Shown: in pieces, positions 2,783 to 17,414 of the stretch
Layout: each line of letters opens with the position of its first letter
Numbering within the stretch: position 1 is the stretch's first letter
Source: a bacterium
GTDB lineage: Bacteria > SM23-81 > DAOVCL01
DNA: 17,414 bases
NCBI GenBank assembly: GCA_029932675.1
Contig: JAOZPP010000073.1
Span: 1-17,414 of the forward strand
Direction: 5' to 3'
Notes under the pieces: model-generated
The model's database searches: none
What the model saw: the letters and a program-made list of their open reading frames with translations, nothing else
What the model was told of the DNA's origin: nothing
Translations under genes and position numbers: made by a program

Positions 2783-3714
2783 AAGGAGTTGTTCCGGTAA
2801 TCTTAGGTCCCACGGCTAGCGGAAAGAGCGAGCTGGGGTATAGGGTTGCTCAGGCCTTGGATGGGGAGATCGTCTCCGCCGATTCTCGGCAGATCTACAG
2901 GCTGATGGATATCGGGACAGCAAAGCCGCCTTTGCATTACAGAGAGGCTGTTCCCCATCACCTCTTGGATATCCTTGATCCTGTTCAGCCGTTCAATGCC
3001 TACCTTTACTCCCAGTTGGCGAGGGAGGTCATAGATTCCATCTTCCAGAGAGGAAGGGTCCCCATAGTAGTGGGTGGGTGTGGGTTCTATATCAGGGCCT
3101 TGATTGAGGGGCTGATGCCAGATCTACCACCTTCCCCTCGCCTAAGGGCGAGGTTGGTAAGGATAGCCCAAAAGCGGGGAAGGGAGTATCTCCACGGCCT
3201 CCTCCTCAGGGTTGACCCCCAAGGAGCAAAGCGGATTTCACCAAGGGACCTGGTGAGGACAGTGAGAGCCCTGGAGGTTTGGCTGCTTACCCACCGCCAG
3301 TTTTCCCAGCTTCAGGATGAAAGGGTATCGAGTAAAGCGAGTTTCTCCCCTTTGAAGATTGGCCTGAGGCTGGAGCGAAAGAGGTTATATGAGTCGATTG
3401 ACCAGAGGGTAGAGGAAATGATGGAGAGGGGGTTGGTGGATGAGGTAAGAGGGTTATTGGACAGAGGCTTATCCCCGGAGCTTGGTCCACTCCGTTCCCC
3501 AGGTTACAAGGAGATAATCTCCTATCTTAAAGGGGAGATCGATCTTCTGGAGGCCAAGGAACTCATCAAGCGAAGAACGCGCCGTTATGCCAAACAGCAG
3601 CTCACCTGGTTTAGAGGGGAGGAGGGGGTTAACTGGCTGGATATGGAAGAGGGGATGGAAGAAGCGGAAAGGAAAGTAATTGCCCTTTATCGGGAGGCTG
3701 GAGAAATCTGTTGA
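2779..3714 (+). CDS. miaA: tRNA dimethylallyltransferase MiaA
   Basis: MiaA transfers a dimethylallyl group from DMAPP to N6 of A37 in tRNAs that read UNN codons (EC 2.5.1.75). The protein has 311 residues, the normal length. Seen motifs are the P-loop GPTASGKS (10-17), SADSRQIYR and DIGTAKP after it, and the C-terminal TRRYAKQQLTWFR typical of the family. The usual VGGTG segment reads VGGCG here, a Thr-to-Cys change whose effect I cannot judge. The GTG start overlaps the mutL stop by 4 bases and is preceded by GGGAG inside mutL. The mutL-miaA order is common in bacteria; hfq, often the next gene, is absent and rpsU follows instead. Confidence 0.96.
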   Translation: MKGVVPVILGPTASGKSELGYRVAQALDGEIVSADSRQIYRLMDIGTAKPPLHYREAVPHHLLDILDPVQPFNAYLYSQLAREVIDSIFQRGRVPIVVGGCGFYIRALIEGLMPDLPPSPRLRARLVRIAQKRGREYLHGLLLRVDPQGAKRISPRDLVRTVRALEVWLLTHRQFSQLQDERVSSKASFSPLKIGLRLERKRLYESIDQRVEEMMERGLVDEVRGLLDRGLSPELGPLRSPGYKEIISYLKGEIDLLEAKELIKRRTRRYAKQQLTWFRGEEGVNWLDMEEGMEEAERKVIALYREAGEIC

Positions 3715-3739
3715 CAAAGTTTAGGATTGACTTTATATT
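3711..3739 (+). promoter_or_regulatory. Near-consensus sigma70 promoter of rpsU
   Basis: A perfect -35 box TTGACA (3711-3716) and a -10 box TATATT (3734-3739, 5/6) are spaced by 17 bases. The -35 box overlaps the TGA stop of miaA (3712-3714). Transcription would begin near 3746, about 33 bases before the rpsU start. The strength fits a ribosomal protein gene. Confidence 0.75.
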
Positions 3740-3778: not shown

Positions 3779-3964
3779 TTGGTCCAAGTTAAAGTTCGTG
3801 ACAATGAGTCATTTGAGAGGGCATTGCGCCGATTTCGGCATCTTTGCCAGAGGGAGGGGATACTTAGGGGGTTGAAGGAGAGGAGATTTTATCAGAAACC
3901 AAGTGAGGAGAAGAGAAAGAGGTTGATGGAAGCAAGGAGGAGGTTGCGGAGGCAGAAGGGGTAA
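3779..3964 (+). CDS. rpsU: Small ribosomal subunit protein S21 (bS21)
   Basis: S21 binds the 30S platform near the anti-Shine-Dalgarno end of 16S rRNA and helps mRNA docking. The gene encodes 61 residues, within the family's range of about 58-71. The N-terminus VQVKVRDNESFERALRRF is characteristic. The rest is highly basic (RKRLMEARRRLRRQKG at the end) and helical. The start is TTG at 3779, placed 9 bases after a good Shine-Dalgarno AAGGAG (3764-3769). No in-frame ATG or GTG lies closer to the conserved N-terminus. It has its own strong promoter, and the hairpin at 4029-4051 is the first terminator downstream. Confidence 0.95.
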   Translation: MVQVKVRDNESFERALRRFRHLCQREGILRGLKERRFYQKPSEEKRKRLMEARRRLRRQKG

Positions 3965-3988
3965 CAGGAGTAATCTTAGAAAAATCCC

Positions 3989-4017
3989 TTGCATAATCCG
4001 CTGTCTTTTCGTATATT
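3989..4017 (+). promoter_or_regulatory. Near-consensus sigma70 promoter of the rimP-nusA-infB operon
   Basis: TTGCAT (3989-3994) and TATATT (4012-4017) are spaced by 17 bases, the same layout as the rpsU promoter. Transcription should begin near 4024-4025. The transcript would run at once into the terminator hairpin at 4029-4051, before the rimP start at 4066. Confidence 0.7.
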
Positions 4018-4028
4018 CCTCTCCAGAG

Positions 4029-4051
4029 AGTGGGTGGATGCCCACTTTTTT
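4029..4051 (+). terminator. Intrinsic terminator / attenuator in the rimP leader
   Basis: AGTGGGT (4029-4035) pairs with GCCCACT (4040-4046), 7 bp including one T-G, around loop GGAT. Six T residues follow (4046-4051). It terminates rpsU read-through. Because it lies downstream of the promoter at 3989-4017, it must also be passed by every rimP-nusA transcript. It begins only about 5 bases after the predicted start of transcription, so it may also serve as a 5' protective stem-loop. Confidence 0.75.
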
Positions 4052-4065
4052 GGTATGGGGGAGCG

Positions 4066-4515
4066 ATGAATTTAGGGGAAAGGGTTAAGGAGTTGGTTAG
4101 TTCGCGGGTGGAGAGCCTGGGATTCGAGCTGGTGGAGGTCAAACTCTGGGGCTCAGGGCGGAAATTTTTACGGGTGCTCATCCACAAGCCGGGAGGGGTG
4201 AGCCTGGATGACTGTGTCCTAGTAAACAGGAGCCTCTCTGATCTCTTAGACACCGAGGATCCTCTGCCTGGGCCCTATACATTGGAGGTCTCCTCCCCAG
4301 GGCTGGATCGTCCCCTAACCCAATCCTCTGATTTTGATCGGAATAGGGGAGAAGAAGTGAGGGTGACCCTCCACCGTCCTTACGAAGGGAGTCAGGTCTG
4401 GCGGGGAAGGATCCTTGAGGCCCAGCCCGAAGGACTTCTCCTCAAGGTGGGAGCAAGGGAGGTACTTCTGCGGTGGGAACTAATTGCCAAGGCAAACTTA
4501 GAGGTGAAGATCTAA
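4066..4515 (+). CDS. rimP: Ribosome maturation factor RimP
   Basis: RimP is needed for late 30S subunit assembly. The protein has 149 residues, the usual size. The N-terminal domain includes LGFELVEVK and FLRVLIHKPGGVSLDDC, followed by the family hallmark YTLEVSSPGLDRPL. A C-terminal SH3-like barrel runs over roughly the last 55 residues. A longer frame opens at GTG 4030, but that start lies inside the terminator hairpin and adds 12 non-conserved residues. I therefore choose ATG 4066, preceded closely by GGGGGAG (4057-4063). It is the first gene of the operon, and its stop directly abuts the nusA ATG. Confidence 0.95.
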   Translation: MNLGERVKELVSSRVESLGFELVEVKLWGSGRKFLRVLIHKPGGVSLDDCVLVNRSLSDLLDTEDPLPGPYTLEVSSPGLDRPLTQSSDFDRNRGEEVRVTLHRPYEGSQVWRGRILEAQPEGLLLKVGAREVLLRWELIAKANLEVKI

Positions 4516-5787
4516 ATGTCTAATCTGGAGATAGCAGAGGCCCTGAGGCAGATAACCAGGGAAAAAAGCATAGATATGAGCATGGTCTTAGAGACCTTGA
4601 AGGCAGGCCTTCTTCTGGCCGCCAAGAAGATGTTTGGTAGCTCTGAGAACATAGAGGTCAATGTCAACCAGAACAGTGGACAGATAGACATCTTTGCCGT
4701 GAAGAAGGTAGTGGAGGAGGTAAAGAAGCCAAACCTTCAGATAGCCCTCCAAGATGCTAAGGAGATAGACCCGGAGGTTGAATTAGGGGGGGAGGTAAGG
4801 GTGGAACTCTCCCTCTCCGATTTTGGCAGGAATGCCATTTTGGCCGCTAAACAGGTGCTTATGCAGAGGATCAGGGAAGTGGAGAGGGACAAGATCTTTG
4901 AGGATTACCAGGCTAAGATCGGGGAGATCGTTACCGGGACAGTCCAGCAGATGGATCGAGGGGCGATAATCATTAACTTAGGCCGCAGTGAGGGGGTAAT
5001 CCCTCCTTCCGAACAGCTAAAGAAGGAGAGGTATAGACAAGGGGATACGGTGAGGAGTTATGTCCTGGATGTGCAGCGTTCCTCCAGAGGACCTCAGATA
5101 AGGCTTTCCCGCACCGCCCCTGGATTTTTGGTTAAGCTCTTTGAATTGGAAGTTCCGGAGATCTACGAAAAGATTGTGGAGATAAAGGCTGTAGCCAGGG
5201 AACCTGGTTCAAGGTCGAAGATAGCTGTGGCCTCGGCTGATGCCCGGGTTGATCCGGTGGGGGCCTGTGTAGGGGTAAAGGGCTCGCGGGTGCAGAATGT
5301 AGTGAGGGAGTTAGGGAACGAAAGGATAGACATCGTCCATTGGAACCCTGATCCAGCTATCTTTGTGAGTAATGCCTTGAGCCCAGCAAAGGTTAAGCAC
5401 AGCGATGTCTACCCAGAAGAGAAGAAGGTAAGGGTAGTAGTTGATGATGACCAACTCTCCTTAGCCATAGGCAAATCTGGCCAGAATGCTCGATTGGCTG
5501 CCAAGCTTACCGGATGGAAGATCGACATCCTTAGCCAGTCCCGTTACGCACAGCTTATGGAAAAGGAACGCCTTTTGGCTGTAAGCATAGACCAACTCCC
5601 CGGAATAGGCCCGAAGCTTGCGGAGAAGTTGAGATCGGCTGGTATAGAGACCCTATATGATCTCCAGGACAAGAAGGTGGAGGAATTAACCTCCATCCCA
5701 GGGATTGGCCGGCAACGGGCGGAGTCGATCTTGGCCCGGGCAGCAGAGTTTGAAGCGGAAGGAGGTAGTGTAATTGGCGAAAGATAA
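4516..5787 (+). CDS. nusA: Transcription termination/antitermination protein NusA
   Basis: NusA binds RNA polymerase near the RNA exit channel and promotes pausing, hairpin-dependent termination and rRNA antitermination. The protein has 423 residues. The N-terminal polymerase-binding domain covers about 1-125 and an S1 domain begins at GEIVTG (136). KH1 carries GVKG (253-256) and KH2 carries IGKSGQ (318-323). A C-terminal helix-hairpin-helix region has two LPGIG/IPGIG turns (361-365 and 394-398). It lacks the two long acidic repeats of the enteric protein. The ATG follows the rimP TAA with no spacing, and the 3' end overlaps infB by 14 bases. The terminator in the operon leader makes autogenous control by NusA plausible. 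Confidence 0.97.
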
Positions 5788-7963
5788 AAGGGTATATGAA
5801 ATTGCCAGAAAGTATGATGTCTCCAGTGAGGCCCTTCTTAATATCCTTCATGAGCTTGACTTTAAGGTGAAAAGCCCAATGAGCTTGGTCAATGAGGATA
5901 TGCTTGAGGCGATAGAGAGGAAGTTTAGCGAGGAGAAAGAGGCAGTCAAGAGGGAATATAAACGGAAGAAGAAACTTATTGAGGCTCGCCGGAGCAAGGA
6001 AGAGGCGAAGAAAGCGGTTAAGAAAAAGAAGAAAGGAAAACCAGTATTTCGGGCCGCCCCCCCCCGCAGGGGAAAGAGACCAACCAAGAGAAGAAAGGTA
6101 GACGAGAAGGAAGTAGAGGAGAATATAAAGAAAACCCTTACTCAGATGGCCGCCAAGCTTCCTAAAAGGAGGAAACGCCGCCAGGAGGTGGGAAAGGGTG
6201 GTGAGGAGGAGTTAAGGGAGGTGAGGGTCTCCGAATTTATCTCCGTGGCTGAGTTGGCCCAGCAGATGGGGGTAAAGCCAACTGATGTGATTAGCAAATG
6301 TATGGAGATGGGCCTTCTGGTTACCATAAACGAGAGGTTGGATATAGAGACTATTGAGATGGTGGCTGACGAATTTGGATTTCAGGTGAGGCAACTCGAT
6401 GAATATGGGGCAGATCTGCTGGAGGAAGAGGAGGAGGCCTCTCCTGGGGCTGAGGAACCAAGGGCTCCGGTAGTCACTATGATGGGCCATGTCGATCACG
6501 GGAAGACATCCCTTCTGGACTACATCAGGAAGAGCAACATCATTGCTGGAGAGTCAGGGGGGATAACTCAGCACATTGGGGCCTATGAAGTTGAGCTCCC
6601 CAACGGAAGGATAGTCTTTTTAGATACTCCGGGACATGAGGCGTTTACTGCAATGAGGGCGCGGGGGACGCAGATCACGGACTTGGTGGTCTTGGTGGTG
6701 GCTGCTGATGATGGTGTTAAGCCGCAGACCGTGGAGGCTATCGACCATGCGAGGGCTGCTGGTGTTCCTATAGTGGTGGCCATAAATAAGATCGACCTCC
6801 CCCAGGGGGACGCGGAGAGGGTGAAAAGGCAGCTCTCCGAGTTGGGCTTAGTGGTGGAGGAATGGGGGGGGAGGACGGTGGCAGTAGAGGTTTCGGCTAA
6901 GACGGGGGAGGGTGTGGATAAGCTCTTGGAGATGCTTCTTCTTCAGGCTGAGCTATTGGAACTGAAGGCCAACCCTCAGGCCCGGGCCACTGGGGTTGTT
7001 GTGGAGTCGAAATTGGATTTAGGCAAGGGGCCTGTGGCCACTATTTTAGTGCAGAACGGTACCCTTAGCTTAGGTGATCCCTTTGTCTGTGGAATTACCT
7101 GCGGGAAGGTGCGGGCCTTGATCGATGGGAGAGGGAAAAGATTAAAGGGGGCCCCTCCTTCCACCCCTGTAAAGGTCTTGGGATTTGAAGGCCTTCCTCA
7201 AGCCGGTGAATCCTTTCATGTAGTCTCCGATGAGAGGAAGGCAAAGGAGATCAGCCTAAAGAGGCAACAGATCCACAGGGAGGAGGCTTATCGGAGGGTG
7301 AGGAGGGTAACTTTAGTCGATGTTTATGATTACATAAAGAGCGGCCAGATAAAGGAACTGAAGATAATCATCAAAGGCGATGTTGACGGCTCGGTTGAGG
7401 CTTTGAGCGATGTCTTAGAGAGGCTCTCCACATCAGAGGTGAAGGTGATGGTTATCCATCGGGGGGTAGGGACGATCAATACTTCAGATGTCCTTTTGGC
7501 CGCCGCCTCAGAGGCAGTTATCATTGGTTTCCATGTGCGGGCGGATCTAAGGTCTATGGAACTTGCCGCCAAGGAGGGGGTGGATATTCGGTATTATGAT
7601 GTGATCTATGAGGCAGAGGAAGATGTCAAGGCAGCATTGGAGGGTATGTTGGAGCCAGAGAGGGTGGAGGTTCCCCTTGGTCTGGCAGAGGTGCGGGCGA
7701 CATTTCACTCCTCCAAGGTGGGAACCATTGCTGGCTCATATGTGAAAGAGGGTGTAGTGAGGAGGGGGTGTAAGGTGAGGGTAAGGAGGGAAGAGAAGCT
7801 GATATTTGAGGGGGAGATATCCTCTTTGCATCGGTTTAAGGAGGATGTGAGGGAGGTGGGCTCAGGCTATGAGTGTGGCATCAGGATTGAGGGATTAAAC
7901 GACATCAAAGAAGGGGATATATTAGAGGCCTACGAGGAGAAGGAGGTGAAGAGGAAGCTGTAA
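5774..7963 (+). CDS. infB: Translation initiation factor IF-2
   Basis: IF2 is the GTPase that recruits fMet-tRNA to the 30S subunit and promotes 50S joining. The protein has 729 residues, at the short end for bacteria. It starts with an IF2_N module (about 4-55), then a lysine/arginine-rich linker (about 55-145) and a second IF2_N module (about 155-205). The G domain shows GHVDHGKT (238-245), DTPGH (284-288), NKID (338-341) and SAK (374-376). Domains II-IV follow, including KGDVDGSVEAL and IIGFHVR. The start is TTG at 5774, 7 bases after a strong AAGGAGGT (5759-5766) that lies inside nusA. The first 14 bases overlap nusA, so translation is probably coupled. Confidence 0.97.
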   Translation: MAKDKRVYEIARKYDVSSEALLNILHELDFKVKSPMSLVNEDMLEAIERKFSEEKEAVKREYKRKKKLIEARRSKEEAKKAVKKKKKGKPVFRAAPPRRGKRPTKRRKVDEKEVEENIKKTLTQMAAKLPKRRKRRQEVGKGGEEELREVRVSEFISVAELAQQMGVKPTDVISKCMEMGLLVTINERLDIETIEMVADEFGFQVRQLDEYGADLLEEEEEASPGAEEPRAPVVTMMGHVDHGKTSLLDYIRKSNIIAGESGGITQHIGAYEVELPNGRIVFLDTPGHEAFTAMRARGTQITDLVVLVVAADDGVKPQTVEAIDHARAAGVPIVVAINKIDLPQGDAERVKRQLSELGLVVEEWGGRTVAVEVSAKTGEGVDKLLEMLLLQAELLELKANPQARATGVVVESKLDLGKGPVATILVQNGTLSLGDPFVCGITCGKVRALIDGRGKRLKGAPPSTPVKVLGFEGLPQAGESFHVVSDERKAKEISLKRQQIHREEAYRRVRRVTLVDVYDYIKSGQIKELKIIIKGDVDGSVEALSDVLERLSTSEVKVMVIHRGVGTINTSDVLLAAASEAVIIGFHVRADLRSMELAAKEGVDIRYYDVIYEAEEDVKAALEGMLEPERVEVPLGLAEVRATFHSSKVGTIAGSYVKEGVVRRGCKVRVRREEKLIFEGEISSLHRFKEDVREVGSGYECGIRIEGLNDIKEGDILEAYEEKEVKRKL

Positions 7964-15230: not shown

Positions 15231-15800
15231 ATGGGCAAGCTTAATCGGGACTTCTATTCATCTCCCACCTTGGTTGTAGCCAAGGGTGTCTTAGGTAAGC
15301 ACCTCATCCATCGCACAGAGGGTGGGATCATCTCTGGAAGGATTGTGGAAACAGAGGCCTATATTGGTTCTGGCGATCAGGCCTCCCATGCCAGGTTTGG
15401 ATATACTCCGCGGAACAGATTGATGTTTGGCCCCCCGGGTTACGCCTATATCTACTTCATTTATGGGATGTATTACTGCCTGAATGTGGTTACCGAGCCT
15501 GAAGGCTTCCCGGCCGCTGTGCTCATCAGGGCCTTGGAGCCCGCAGATGGCCTCGCCCTAATGCTTAGGAGAAGGGGCCGAAGAAGGGAACTGACCAATG
15601 GGCCGGGGAGGTTATGTCTGGCCCTGGGGATTGATGGTTCCCTGAACGGGATAGATCTTTGTGGAGATAGGCTTTATATTGAGGATAGGGGTGAGGAGGT
15701 GGGTGAGATCTGCTCCTCCTCACGGGTAGGGGTATCCGGGGGAAAGGATAAGCACTGGCGGTTCTACATCAAGGGGAACAGATGGGTTTCCAGAAGGTAA
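15231..15800 (+). CDS. 3-methyladenine DNA glycosylase (AAG/MPG family)
   Basis: The enzyme excises alkylated purines such as 3-methyladenine to start base excision repair. The protein has 189 residues, normal for bacterial members. FYSSPTLVVAKGVLGKHLI matches the family's start. RIVETEAYIG carries the catalytic Glu42 and the intercalating Tyr44, and ASHA gives His53. TPRNRLMFGPPGYAYIYFIYGMYYCLNVV and TNGPGRL are further hallmarks. The ATG lies directly after the terminator T-tract and has no Shine-Dalgarno sequence. Either the mRNA is nearly leaderless or translation depends on another feature. I found no clear promoter. The hicB gene starts 38 bases after the stop. Confidence 0.94.
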   Translation: MGKLNRDFYSSPTLVVAKGVLGKHLIHRTEGGIISGRIVETEAYIGSGDQASHARFGYTPRNRLMFGPPGYAYIYFIYGMYYCLNVVTEPEGFPAAVLIRALEPADGLALMLRRRGRRRELTNGPGRLCLALGIDGSLNGIDLCGDRLYIEDRGEEVGEICSSSRVGVSGGKDKHWRFYIKGNRWVSRR

Positions 15801-15838
15801 AGCCTGGTTTGAAAGCAAATTATCCGGAGGGATTTGTT

Positions 15839-16033
15839 ATGAAATTTAATGTAATCTTAGAAGCAGCGGAGGAAGGTGGATATAATGTAACGGTACCAGC
15901 CCTAGATGGCTGTTATACCCAGGGCGATACGGAAGAAGAGGCGTTTAAAAACGCCAAAGAAGCCATTCTCTGCTGGCTCGAAGGGCTTCAGAAATTGAAC
16001 GGAATAAAATCAAAGCCCAGGGGATCTTCATGA
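15839..16033 (+). CDS. hicB: HicB family antitoxin (short form)
   Basis: HicB neutralises the HicA mRNA interferase by direct binding. The protein has 64 residues. The degenerate RNase H-like fold is evident in GGYNVTVPALDGCYTQGDT, followed by the helix EEEAFKNAKEAILCWLEGL. It ends without the C-terminal ribbon-helix-helix or HTH DNA-binding domain of longer HicB proteins, so it may not bind its own operator. A longer frame opens at 15782 inside the glycosylase gene. I choose ATG 15839 because GGAGG (15826-15830) stands 8 bases before it and because MKFNVILE is the expected family start. hicA begins 19 bases after the stop. Confidence 0.88.
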   Translation: MKFNVILEAAEEGGYNVTVPALDGCYTQGDTEEEAFKNAKEAILCWLEGLQKLNGIKSKPRGSS

Positions 16034-16052
16034 GAGGAGTGGAGGAGAGAGT

Positions 16053-16262
16053 ATGAATCGAATAATCTCCAGCAGACAAGCTATTAAGGCTCTCCGTAAA
16101 GTTGGTTTTGTAGTGGTGGGTCGCCGGAGAAATCATATCTATATGCGTAACTCGGAGGGGGATATCACAGTGATTCTCCCCTTTCGCAAGGAGTTAAAAA
16201 GGGGAACCCTCCACCATATATTGGAAAAGGCAGGACTTACCGTTGAGGATTTACCTGAGTGA
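16053..16262 (+). CDS. hicA: HicA family toxin (mRNA interferase)
   Basis: HicA is a small double-stranded-RNA-binding-fold ribonuclease that cleaves mRNAs and arrests growth when free of HicB. The protein has 69 residues. It shows SSRQAIKALRKVGFVVVGRR, the catalytic His28 in RNHIYM and the conserved ELKRGTLHHILEKAGLTVEDL. The catalytic His is kept, although the usual GSH is RNH here. The start ATG follows GGAGGAGAGA (16041-16050). The order is antitoxin first, the reverse of the classic hicA-hicB order but seen in many genomes. No frameshift is visible, so the pair looks intact. Confidence 0.92.
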   Translation: MNRIISSRQAIKALRKVGFVVVGRRRNHIYMRNSEGDITVILPFRKELKRGTLHHILEKAGLTVEDLPE

Positions 16263-16517: not shown

Positions 16518-16546
16518 TTGACTTTTGTAAGCGCCGTTATTATATT
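16518..16546 (+). promoter_or_regulatory. Near-consensus sigma70 promoter of the nucleotidyltransferase gene
   Basis: TTGACT (16518-16523) and TATATT (16541-16546) are spaced by 17 bases. Transcription should begin near 16553, a few bases before the 12-bp palindrome, and about 32 bases before the ATG at 16585. Confidence 0.7.
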
Positions 16547-16556
16547 TCCATAAGTG

Positions 16557-16568
16557 GACAATATTGTC
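16557..16568. promoter_or_regulatory. Perfect palindrome GACAATATTGTC, candidate operator
   Basis: GACAAT and ATTGTC form a perfect 12-bp dyad at the predicted transcription start (16555 and 16570 extend the symmetry around a G-T pair). A repressor bound here would block the promoter at 16518-16546. Such dyads are typical operators of toxin-antitoxin and XRE-type regulators. The regulator is not identified. Confidence 0.5.
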
Positions 16569-16584
16569 TATAAAGGGAAATGTG

Positions 16585-17414
16585 ATGTTATGGCCTATCT
16601 TATACGAAAAGGCACGTGAGCAAGGACTTCCGCTTAGTACGGTTGTAGCTGAAGTATTCCACCTCATTGTCCTAGATGCTCTTTTTGCTATCCCTGAGAG
16701 TCAATGGATATGTTTCCAAGGGGGAACGAGTATTCATCTGCTTTATGGGGGGTATCGCTATTCTGAAGATTTAGACTTTGCAGGTGAAACTATCAATCCG
16801 ACTTTGGCGCAACGATTAATCACCAGATCGCAGTCGAAGATTGAGAAAACCGTCATTCAATTGTTAGGCCAGGGGCAATGTGATTGGGAGTTTCCATCGC
16901 CTTTAACCGATCGGCGTGTTTGTGCCTTCTGGTTCCATTTCCAGCCGAAAGGCAAACAGCAGAAATTTAGGGTGAAAATGGAATTTGCACGCTACCCGGT
17001 TTATGAATCAAAGGTAGCCTCAGTACATTCTGATTTGGATGTATTGCAATTCCATCCTTTAATAACTGGGCTCACCACCGAAGAGCTTTTGGCCGAAAAG
17101 ATCACGGCTGTGGGTGGGCGCCCCCATATTAAAGGCCGAGACCTTTTTGACCTTTGGTATTTGTCCGAGGTGCTCGCTACATCCTTGCAATTCGAATTGG
17201 TTAAAAGAAAGCTTCAGGACTATCATGTTAACCTATCAAGGTTAGGATTAGAGCAGAAGCTCACCAACTACAAGGCCGAAACATTAACTGCCGAGATGAA
17301 ACGATTCTTACCCCAACGCTATCGTCGACAGTTGCAACAGAGTAATTATGAAGGAATTCTTAAGACAGCAATGCAAATTATGCAATCGGTTATGATGGCC
17401 TTTTCACCCCCAAG
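16585..17414 (+). CDS. AbiEii/AbiGii-family nucleotidyltransferase toxin-like protein, 3' end cut by window
   Basis: The open frame runs from ATG 16585 to the window end without a stop: 276 complete codons. FQGGTSIHLLYGGYRYSEDL holds GG (46-47), and the SEDLDF segment places Ser60, Asp62 and Asp64 as in the polymerase-beta-type catalytic site GG[TS]...DxD. EELLAEK (166-172) and KGRDLFDLWY (183-192) are further hallmarks of the AbiEii/AbiGii type IV toxin group, whose members add nucleotides to tRNA or other targets. AAAGGG (16572-16577) precedes the ATG. I see 12 of 16 Arg codons as CGN, unlike the AGG-rich core genes, and the base composition looks more AT-rich, which suggests horizontal acquisition. 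No AbiEi-like antitoxin gene lies upstream; a partner might follow downstream. An ATG at 16590 is in another frame and stops within ten codons. Confidence 0.85.
   Translation, partial: MLWPILYEKAREQGLPLSTVVAEVFHLIVLDALFAIPESQWICFQGGTSIHLLYGGYRYSEDLDFAGETINPTLAQRLITRSQSKIEKTVIQLLGQGQCDWEFPSPLTDRRVCAFWFHFQPKGKQQKFRVKMEFARYPVYESKVASVHSDLDVLQFHPLITGLTTEELLAEKITAVGGRPHIKGRDLFDLWYLSEVLATSLQFELVKRKLQDYHVNLSRLGLEQKLTNYKAETLTAEMKRFLPQRYRRQLQQSNYEGILKTAMQIMQSVMMAFSPP

Follow-up and report, generated by a model that had tools for sequence, protein, structure and literature searches.

A rimP-leader transcription attenuator in compact form ahead of rimP-nusA-infB in a sparsely sampled bacterial phylum

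The element directly upstream of rimP-nusA-infB in the window (the whole stretch analysed, 17,414 nucleotides of contig JAOZPP010000073.1) is a rimP-leader transcription attenuator, an already described and widespread element that is present here in a compact form. Its most probable function, to which a probability of about 0.7 is assigned, is partial termination that is raised by NusA and thus exerts negative feedback on the operon. The addition to the known rimP-leader is the compact geometry, in which the predicted transcript opens with its own terminator and leaves no room for an upstream sensor. The analysis adds a sparsely sampled phylum to the known range of this little-studied, though widespread, attenuator, and finds the promoter-to-attenuator spacing to be conserved in several families. 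A preliminary description, made from the letters of the window, had proposed a promoter immediately followed by an intrinsic terminator, with NusA tuning its own read-through; this interpretation is found to be largely right and partly supported.

All features described here lie on the forward strand. The gene rpsU, encoding ribosomal protein S21, has a TTG start and occupies positions 3779-3964 (Pfam PF01165, 4.8e-19); its promoter, TTGACA-N17-TATATT at 3711-3739, matches 11 of 12 consensus positions in the promoter scan and is the source of read-through transcripts. It is followed by rimP (4066-4515; PF02576, PF17384), nusA (4516-5787; PF08529, PF13184, S1) and infB for IF-2 (5774-7963; PF11987, PF00009, PF04760). 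Between rpsU and rimP, a second promoter is read from the sequence, with the −35 element TTGCAT at 3989-3994, a 17-nt spacer at 3995-4011 and the −10 element TATATT at 4012-4017. The position of the −10 element predicts transcription from C4024, or from A4025 as the purine. The rimP promoter matches 8 of 12 consensus positions, which is under the threshold of the scanner, and is absent from its list. Generic scans of the window for promoters (10 matches against 12.0 by chance) and terminators (16 against 21.6) gave no excess and were therefore not used as evidence; the case rests on comparison.

The terminator hairpin, AGTGGGT-GGAT-GCCCACT at 4029-4046, has a stem of four G-C, two A-T and one T-G pair around a loop at 4036-4039, and is joined to a U-tract of six T at 4046-4051, the first of which (T4046) is also the pairing partner of A4029. 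Both promoter elements are where the preliminary description had placed them, with a start at about 4024, and so is its 7-bp G-C-rich hairpin with a six-T tail, provided that the T-G pair is counted among the seven. The 3′ end of the RNA is predicted at about 4048-4051; the U-tract ends 14 nt, and the hairpin 19 nt, before the ATG of rimP at 4066. For the predicted RNA (4024-4051), the folding energy is −14.1 kcal/mol (z −5.2), a stability reached by none of 200 shuffled sequences. As the stem can be extended by A/G-U pairs from 4025 to 4050, the hairpin fills practically the whole predicted RNA. The pattern GTGGG-N2..10-CCCACTTTT has a single match in the 3.03-Mb genome, as does its reversed-pattern control, and a search of viral contigs with the exact hairpin gave no match. 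A GTG at 4030, in frame with rimP, was considered as a start, in which case the gene would include the hairpin; it was rejected, as the corresponding frame in genome G002 reads GTG GGT TGA and the distance between hairpin and gene varies.

The rimP-leader was the most widespread attenuator in the survey of Naville and Gautheret (2010; PMC2965389), who argued that some protein recognises the motif, NusA being their best candidate for the regulator. The window shares with their element a short hairpin with a G-rich 5′ arm and a C-rich 3′ arm, a U-tract directly after the stem (T4046-4051) and a location directly upstream of rimP-nusA-infB, the 19 nt to the Pfam-assigned rimP falling within the 4-130 nt reported for operons headed by rimP. 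The described GGGc...gCCC core appears here as GGGT-GGAT-GCCC, that is GGGU...GCCC in the RNA with a closing T-G pair, a c-to-T variation that occurs in other leaders as well. The window further differs in that the stem begins only 0-5 nt into the predicted RNA. Like the rimP-leader, it has no larger conserved structure of the riboswitch or antiterminator type: Rfam gave no relevant match in the leader region (3900-4200) at gathering or permissive thresholds, and, given the predicted start, only 4-5 nt lie 5′ of the stem. Since the predicted RNA starts with the stem, an upstream riboswitch, leader peptide or antiterminator cannot act on transcripts from the rimP promoter. The Rfam model of the element, RF01770 (rimP), has no match in the window and, in the rest of the genome, six weak matches that stay below the threshold; among the control genomes, it exceeds its cut-off only in E. 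coli.

Comparable leaders are known from three other bacteria. In the operon gbs0413-gbs0418 of Streptococcus agalactiae, RNA-seq located termination 31 nt after the start, and NusA feedback was proposed (PMC4448216). The operon is the same, but the organism belongs to a different phylum, and the terminated RNA was measured there whereas that of ~25-28 nt in the window is predicted. NusA of B. subtilis is autoregulated through NusA-stimulated termination in its own leader (review PMC12288461). A nusA-operon leader with an intrinsic terminator is common to both organisms, with stimulation by NusA demonstrated in B. subtilis; however, the leader there is ~180 nt long (PMC2965389), in contrast to the promoter-proximal stop of the window. 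The metY-rimP-nusA-infB operon of E. coli is repressed by NusA, and its transcripts go up on reduced NusA-dependent termination (PMC6511841). Its leader ends in a GGGCTTTAGGCCC-TTTTTTT hairpin just before rimP and resembles the window in having a hairpin and T-tract in that place, but it differs in its tandem terminators (t1, t2), its metY tRNA and its several promoters, and it fits RF01770.

Conservation was assessed on 145 rimP leaders from genomes chosen as relatives at all distances, in which the relaxed motif (A/G)G(T/C)GG-N3..14-CC(A/G)C(T/C)-N0..4-TTT was searched within 200 nt 5′ of rimP; the rimP starts follow the match positions, with a possible error of some codons, and the genomes added to the set are the top of a score list. 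The relaxed motif is present in 84 of the 145 leaders and the backwards pattern in none, and the strict GTGGG form gives 56 against 0. Some of the 61 leaders that lack the motif carry another hairpin. The preliminary description had proposed an alignment of related rimP leaders as a check for compensatory changes in the stem, and such changes were indeed found. Immediately outside the pattern, the pair is A-T in 44 leaders, G-C in 26, G-T in 10 and A-C in 3 (A-T to G-C, Fisher 2e-10), and the T/C-A/G pair changes from T-A to C-G with no C-A combination, which the pattern permits (Fisher 2e-6); the leaders are related by descent, so that both p-values overstate independence. Furthermore, the seven positions 3′ of the stem hold a mean of 5.3 T against 2.0 expected, in stems picked without requiring T. 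A separate NusA-based scan of named genomes returned mostly Fibrobacterota, at most 48% identical. In the 1,200 nt 5′ of nusA in these records, a credible motif was seen only in the sole non-Fibrobacter record (L007), a far-upstream match in L009 being without a U-tract.

Within the phylum, the window's genome was compared with one genome of the same genus and two of another family. The same-genus genome has an identical block of 46 nt, TATATTCCTCTCCAGAGAGTGGGTGGATGCCCACTTTTTTGGTATGG, running from the −10 box up to the region ahead of the rimP start, despite a diverged promoter spacer. The two genomes of the other family keep TTGCAT-N17-TATATT, followed after 10-11 nt by the GAGTGGG...CCCACT stem and its T-tract; their spacer and loop sequences differ from those of the window. 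Hence a TTGCWT −35 element, the −10 element 10-11 nt 5′ of the stem, and the stem itself, whose loss in relatives was to have told against the element, are kept in all four genomes. The distance from hairpin to rimP match is ~58-62 nt in the other family, as compared to 17 in the window. The region 5′ of the element in that family is not rpsU, and one upstream frame looks by eye like the end of proS. As the element is retained without rpsU upstream, it is assigned to rimP rather than being just the terminator of rpsU. The earlier reading of the hairpin as a terminator is thus well supported by the compensatory changes in the stem, by the U-tract across many families and by the linkage to rimP rather than rpsU.

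The spacing between promoter and stem was analysed in 76 non-redundant leaders with the motif. A strong sigma-70-like promoter lies at most 75 nt 5′ of the stem in 41 of them, against 2.7 in dinucleotide shuffles. In 12 of the 76, against 0.5 expected, the distance from the end of the −10 element to the stem is 4-15 nt, and none of 200 shuffles reaches 12, one of the twelve (L027) being doubtful as it refers to an upstream hairpin. These compact leaders, from about a dozen genomes in which the −10 box ends 8-12 nt 5′ of the stem, include all four of the phylum. In a second group, the −10 box lies 16-37 nt 5′ of the stem. The compact layout is therefore recurrent across several families and constant in the phylum of the window.

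The promoter type was also examined over the whole genome. TTGCWT-N17-TATATT has 10 matches against 1 for the reversed pattern, and the main class, TTGAYW, to which the rpsU promoter belongs, has 66 against 5; the former is a real minor promoter class beside the latter. Of the 41 strong rimP promoters predicted over the rimP leaders of many genomes, 29 have a TTGC-type −35 element. In 24 of the genomes with such a rimP promoter, TTGCWT is far rarer than TTGAYW (~240 and ~1,390 matches summed). The idea of a translation regulon behind TTGCWT promoters was dropped, as the downstream genes showed no common function; those named by eye include ThiD, prfB, groES-groEL and NADH dehydrogenase-type subunits.

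In the feedback proposed here, a polymerase starting at about 4024-4025 would make the hairpin as the first ~20 nt of its RNA and would arrive at the U-tract between about +22 and +28. Some polymerases would terminate there and free an RNA of ~25-28 nt, and others would continue into rimP-nusA-infB. NusA would aid the formation of the hairpin in the RNA exit channel and so raise the terminating fraction, with the effect that plentiful NusA would lead to less transcription of its own operon; read-through from rpsU would meet the same stop. Partial and NusA-dependent termination in this organism is suggested by analogy with the leaders described above. Counting against the dependence on NusA, the stem and U-tract of the window are fairly good, whereas the importance of NusA in B. 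subtilis is greatest where terminators are suboptimal (review PMC12288461).

A constitutive boundary terminator, stopping a constant share of transcripts without sensing NusA (most of those from rpsU and some of those begun at the rimP promoter), would suit a sound intrinsic terminator located directly after rpsU. We consider it unlikely, as the stem goes with rimP even in the family without rpsU upstream, the motif recurs at rimP in many families, and a promoter placed 5′ of the terminator would be senseless for mere insulation of rimP. More improbable still is the control of termination by another protein, such as RimP or some unknown RNA-binding protein, through recognition of the conserved GGG/CCC stem. 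The primary sequence of the stem hardly varies at its G-C pairs, which goes beyond the needs of a terminator and agrees with the motif-recognising protein argued for by Naville and Gautheret (PMC2965389); this invariance is, however, partly a product of the search pattern, and the stem, at the time it has to act, would be inside the exit channel or close to it, where NusA is the known partner.

The preliminary description had also offered a protective 5′ stem-loop. In this reading, the hairpin at +1 to +5 would guard the rimP-nusA mRNA from 5′-end decay and would not be a terminator. In all four genomes of the phylum, and in other families, the stem does begin only a few nucleotides from the predicted start, but protection by itself leaves the conserved U-tract (5.3 T of 7) unexplained. 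Many other leaders have a predicted start 10-30 nt 5′ of the stem and, furthermore, termination and not protection alone was mapped in S. agalactiae (PMC4448216), making this explanation very improbable. The read-through mRNA could still benefit from the stem.

NusA-raised attenuation may be carried a step further, to a tentative and rather doubtful proposal: in this phylum and several unrelated families, the leader might act as an initiation-coupled gauge of NusA whose transcript is the terminator alone, with a possible second layer, in the genus of the window, by hiding of the rimP Shine-Dalgarno. If so, the sole input would be whether sigma on the polymerase has already given way to NusA in the first ~25 nt, and read-through would report free NusA directly, without ribosome, ligand or antiterminator. 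A natural terminator-only transcript of less than 30 nt is about the simplest template for testing NusA as the sole setter of its own expression, and the same template suits asking how early after initiation NusA can act.

The Shine-Dalgarno-like sequence of rimP is GGGGGAG at 4057-4063. Within 4016-4063, RNA that reads through from rpsU is predicted to pair this sequence with UUCCUCUCC, located 5′ of the hairpin, whereas the predicted fold of an RNA begun at A4025 leaves most of the Shine-Dalgarno-like sequence free. The same pairing is predicted in the same-genus genome and is absent from the other family of the phylum. Such hiding is only a lead, as C-rich runs readily pair with sequences of this kind.

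Elsewhere in the window, a gene for a HicB-like antitoxin is followed by a HicA toxin gene at 15782-16262 (PF15919, PF07927). At 16518-17412, a TTGACT-N17-TATATT promoter stands directly 5′ of a gene for an AbiEii-like nucleotidyltransferase toxin, which overruns the end of the window. Three contigs of assembly G000 (C13, C25 and C55) share an identical TTGCATTTTGATCTTTGATATGATATATT at their very ends, which suggests that the assembly breaks at a repeated sequence.
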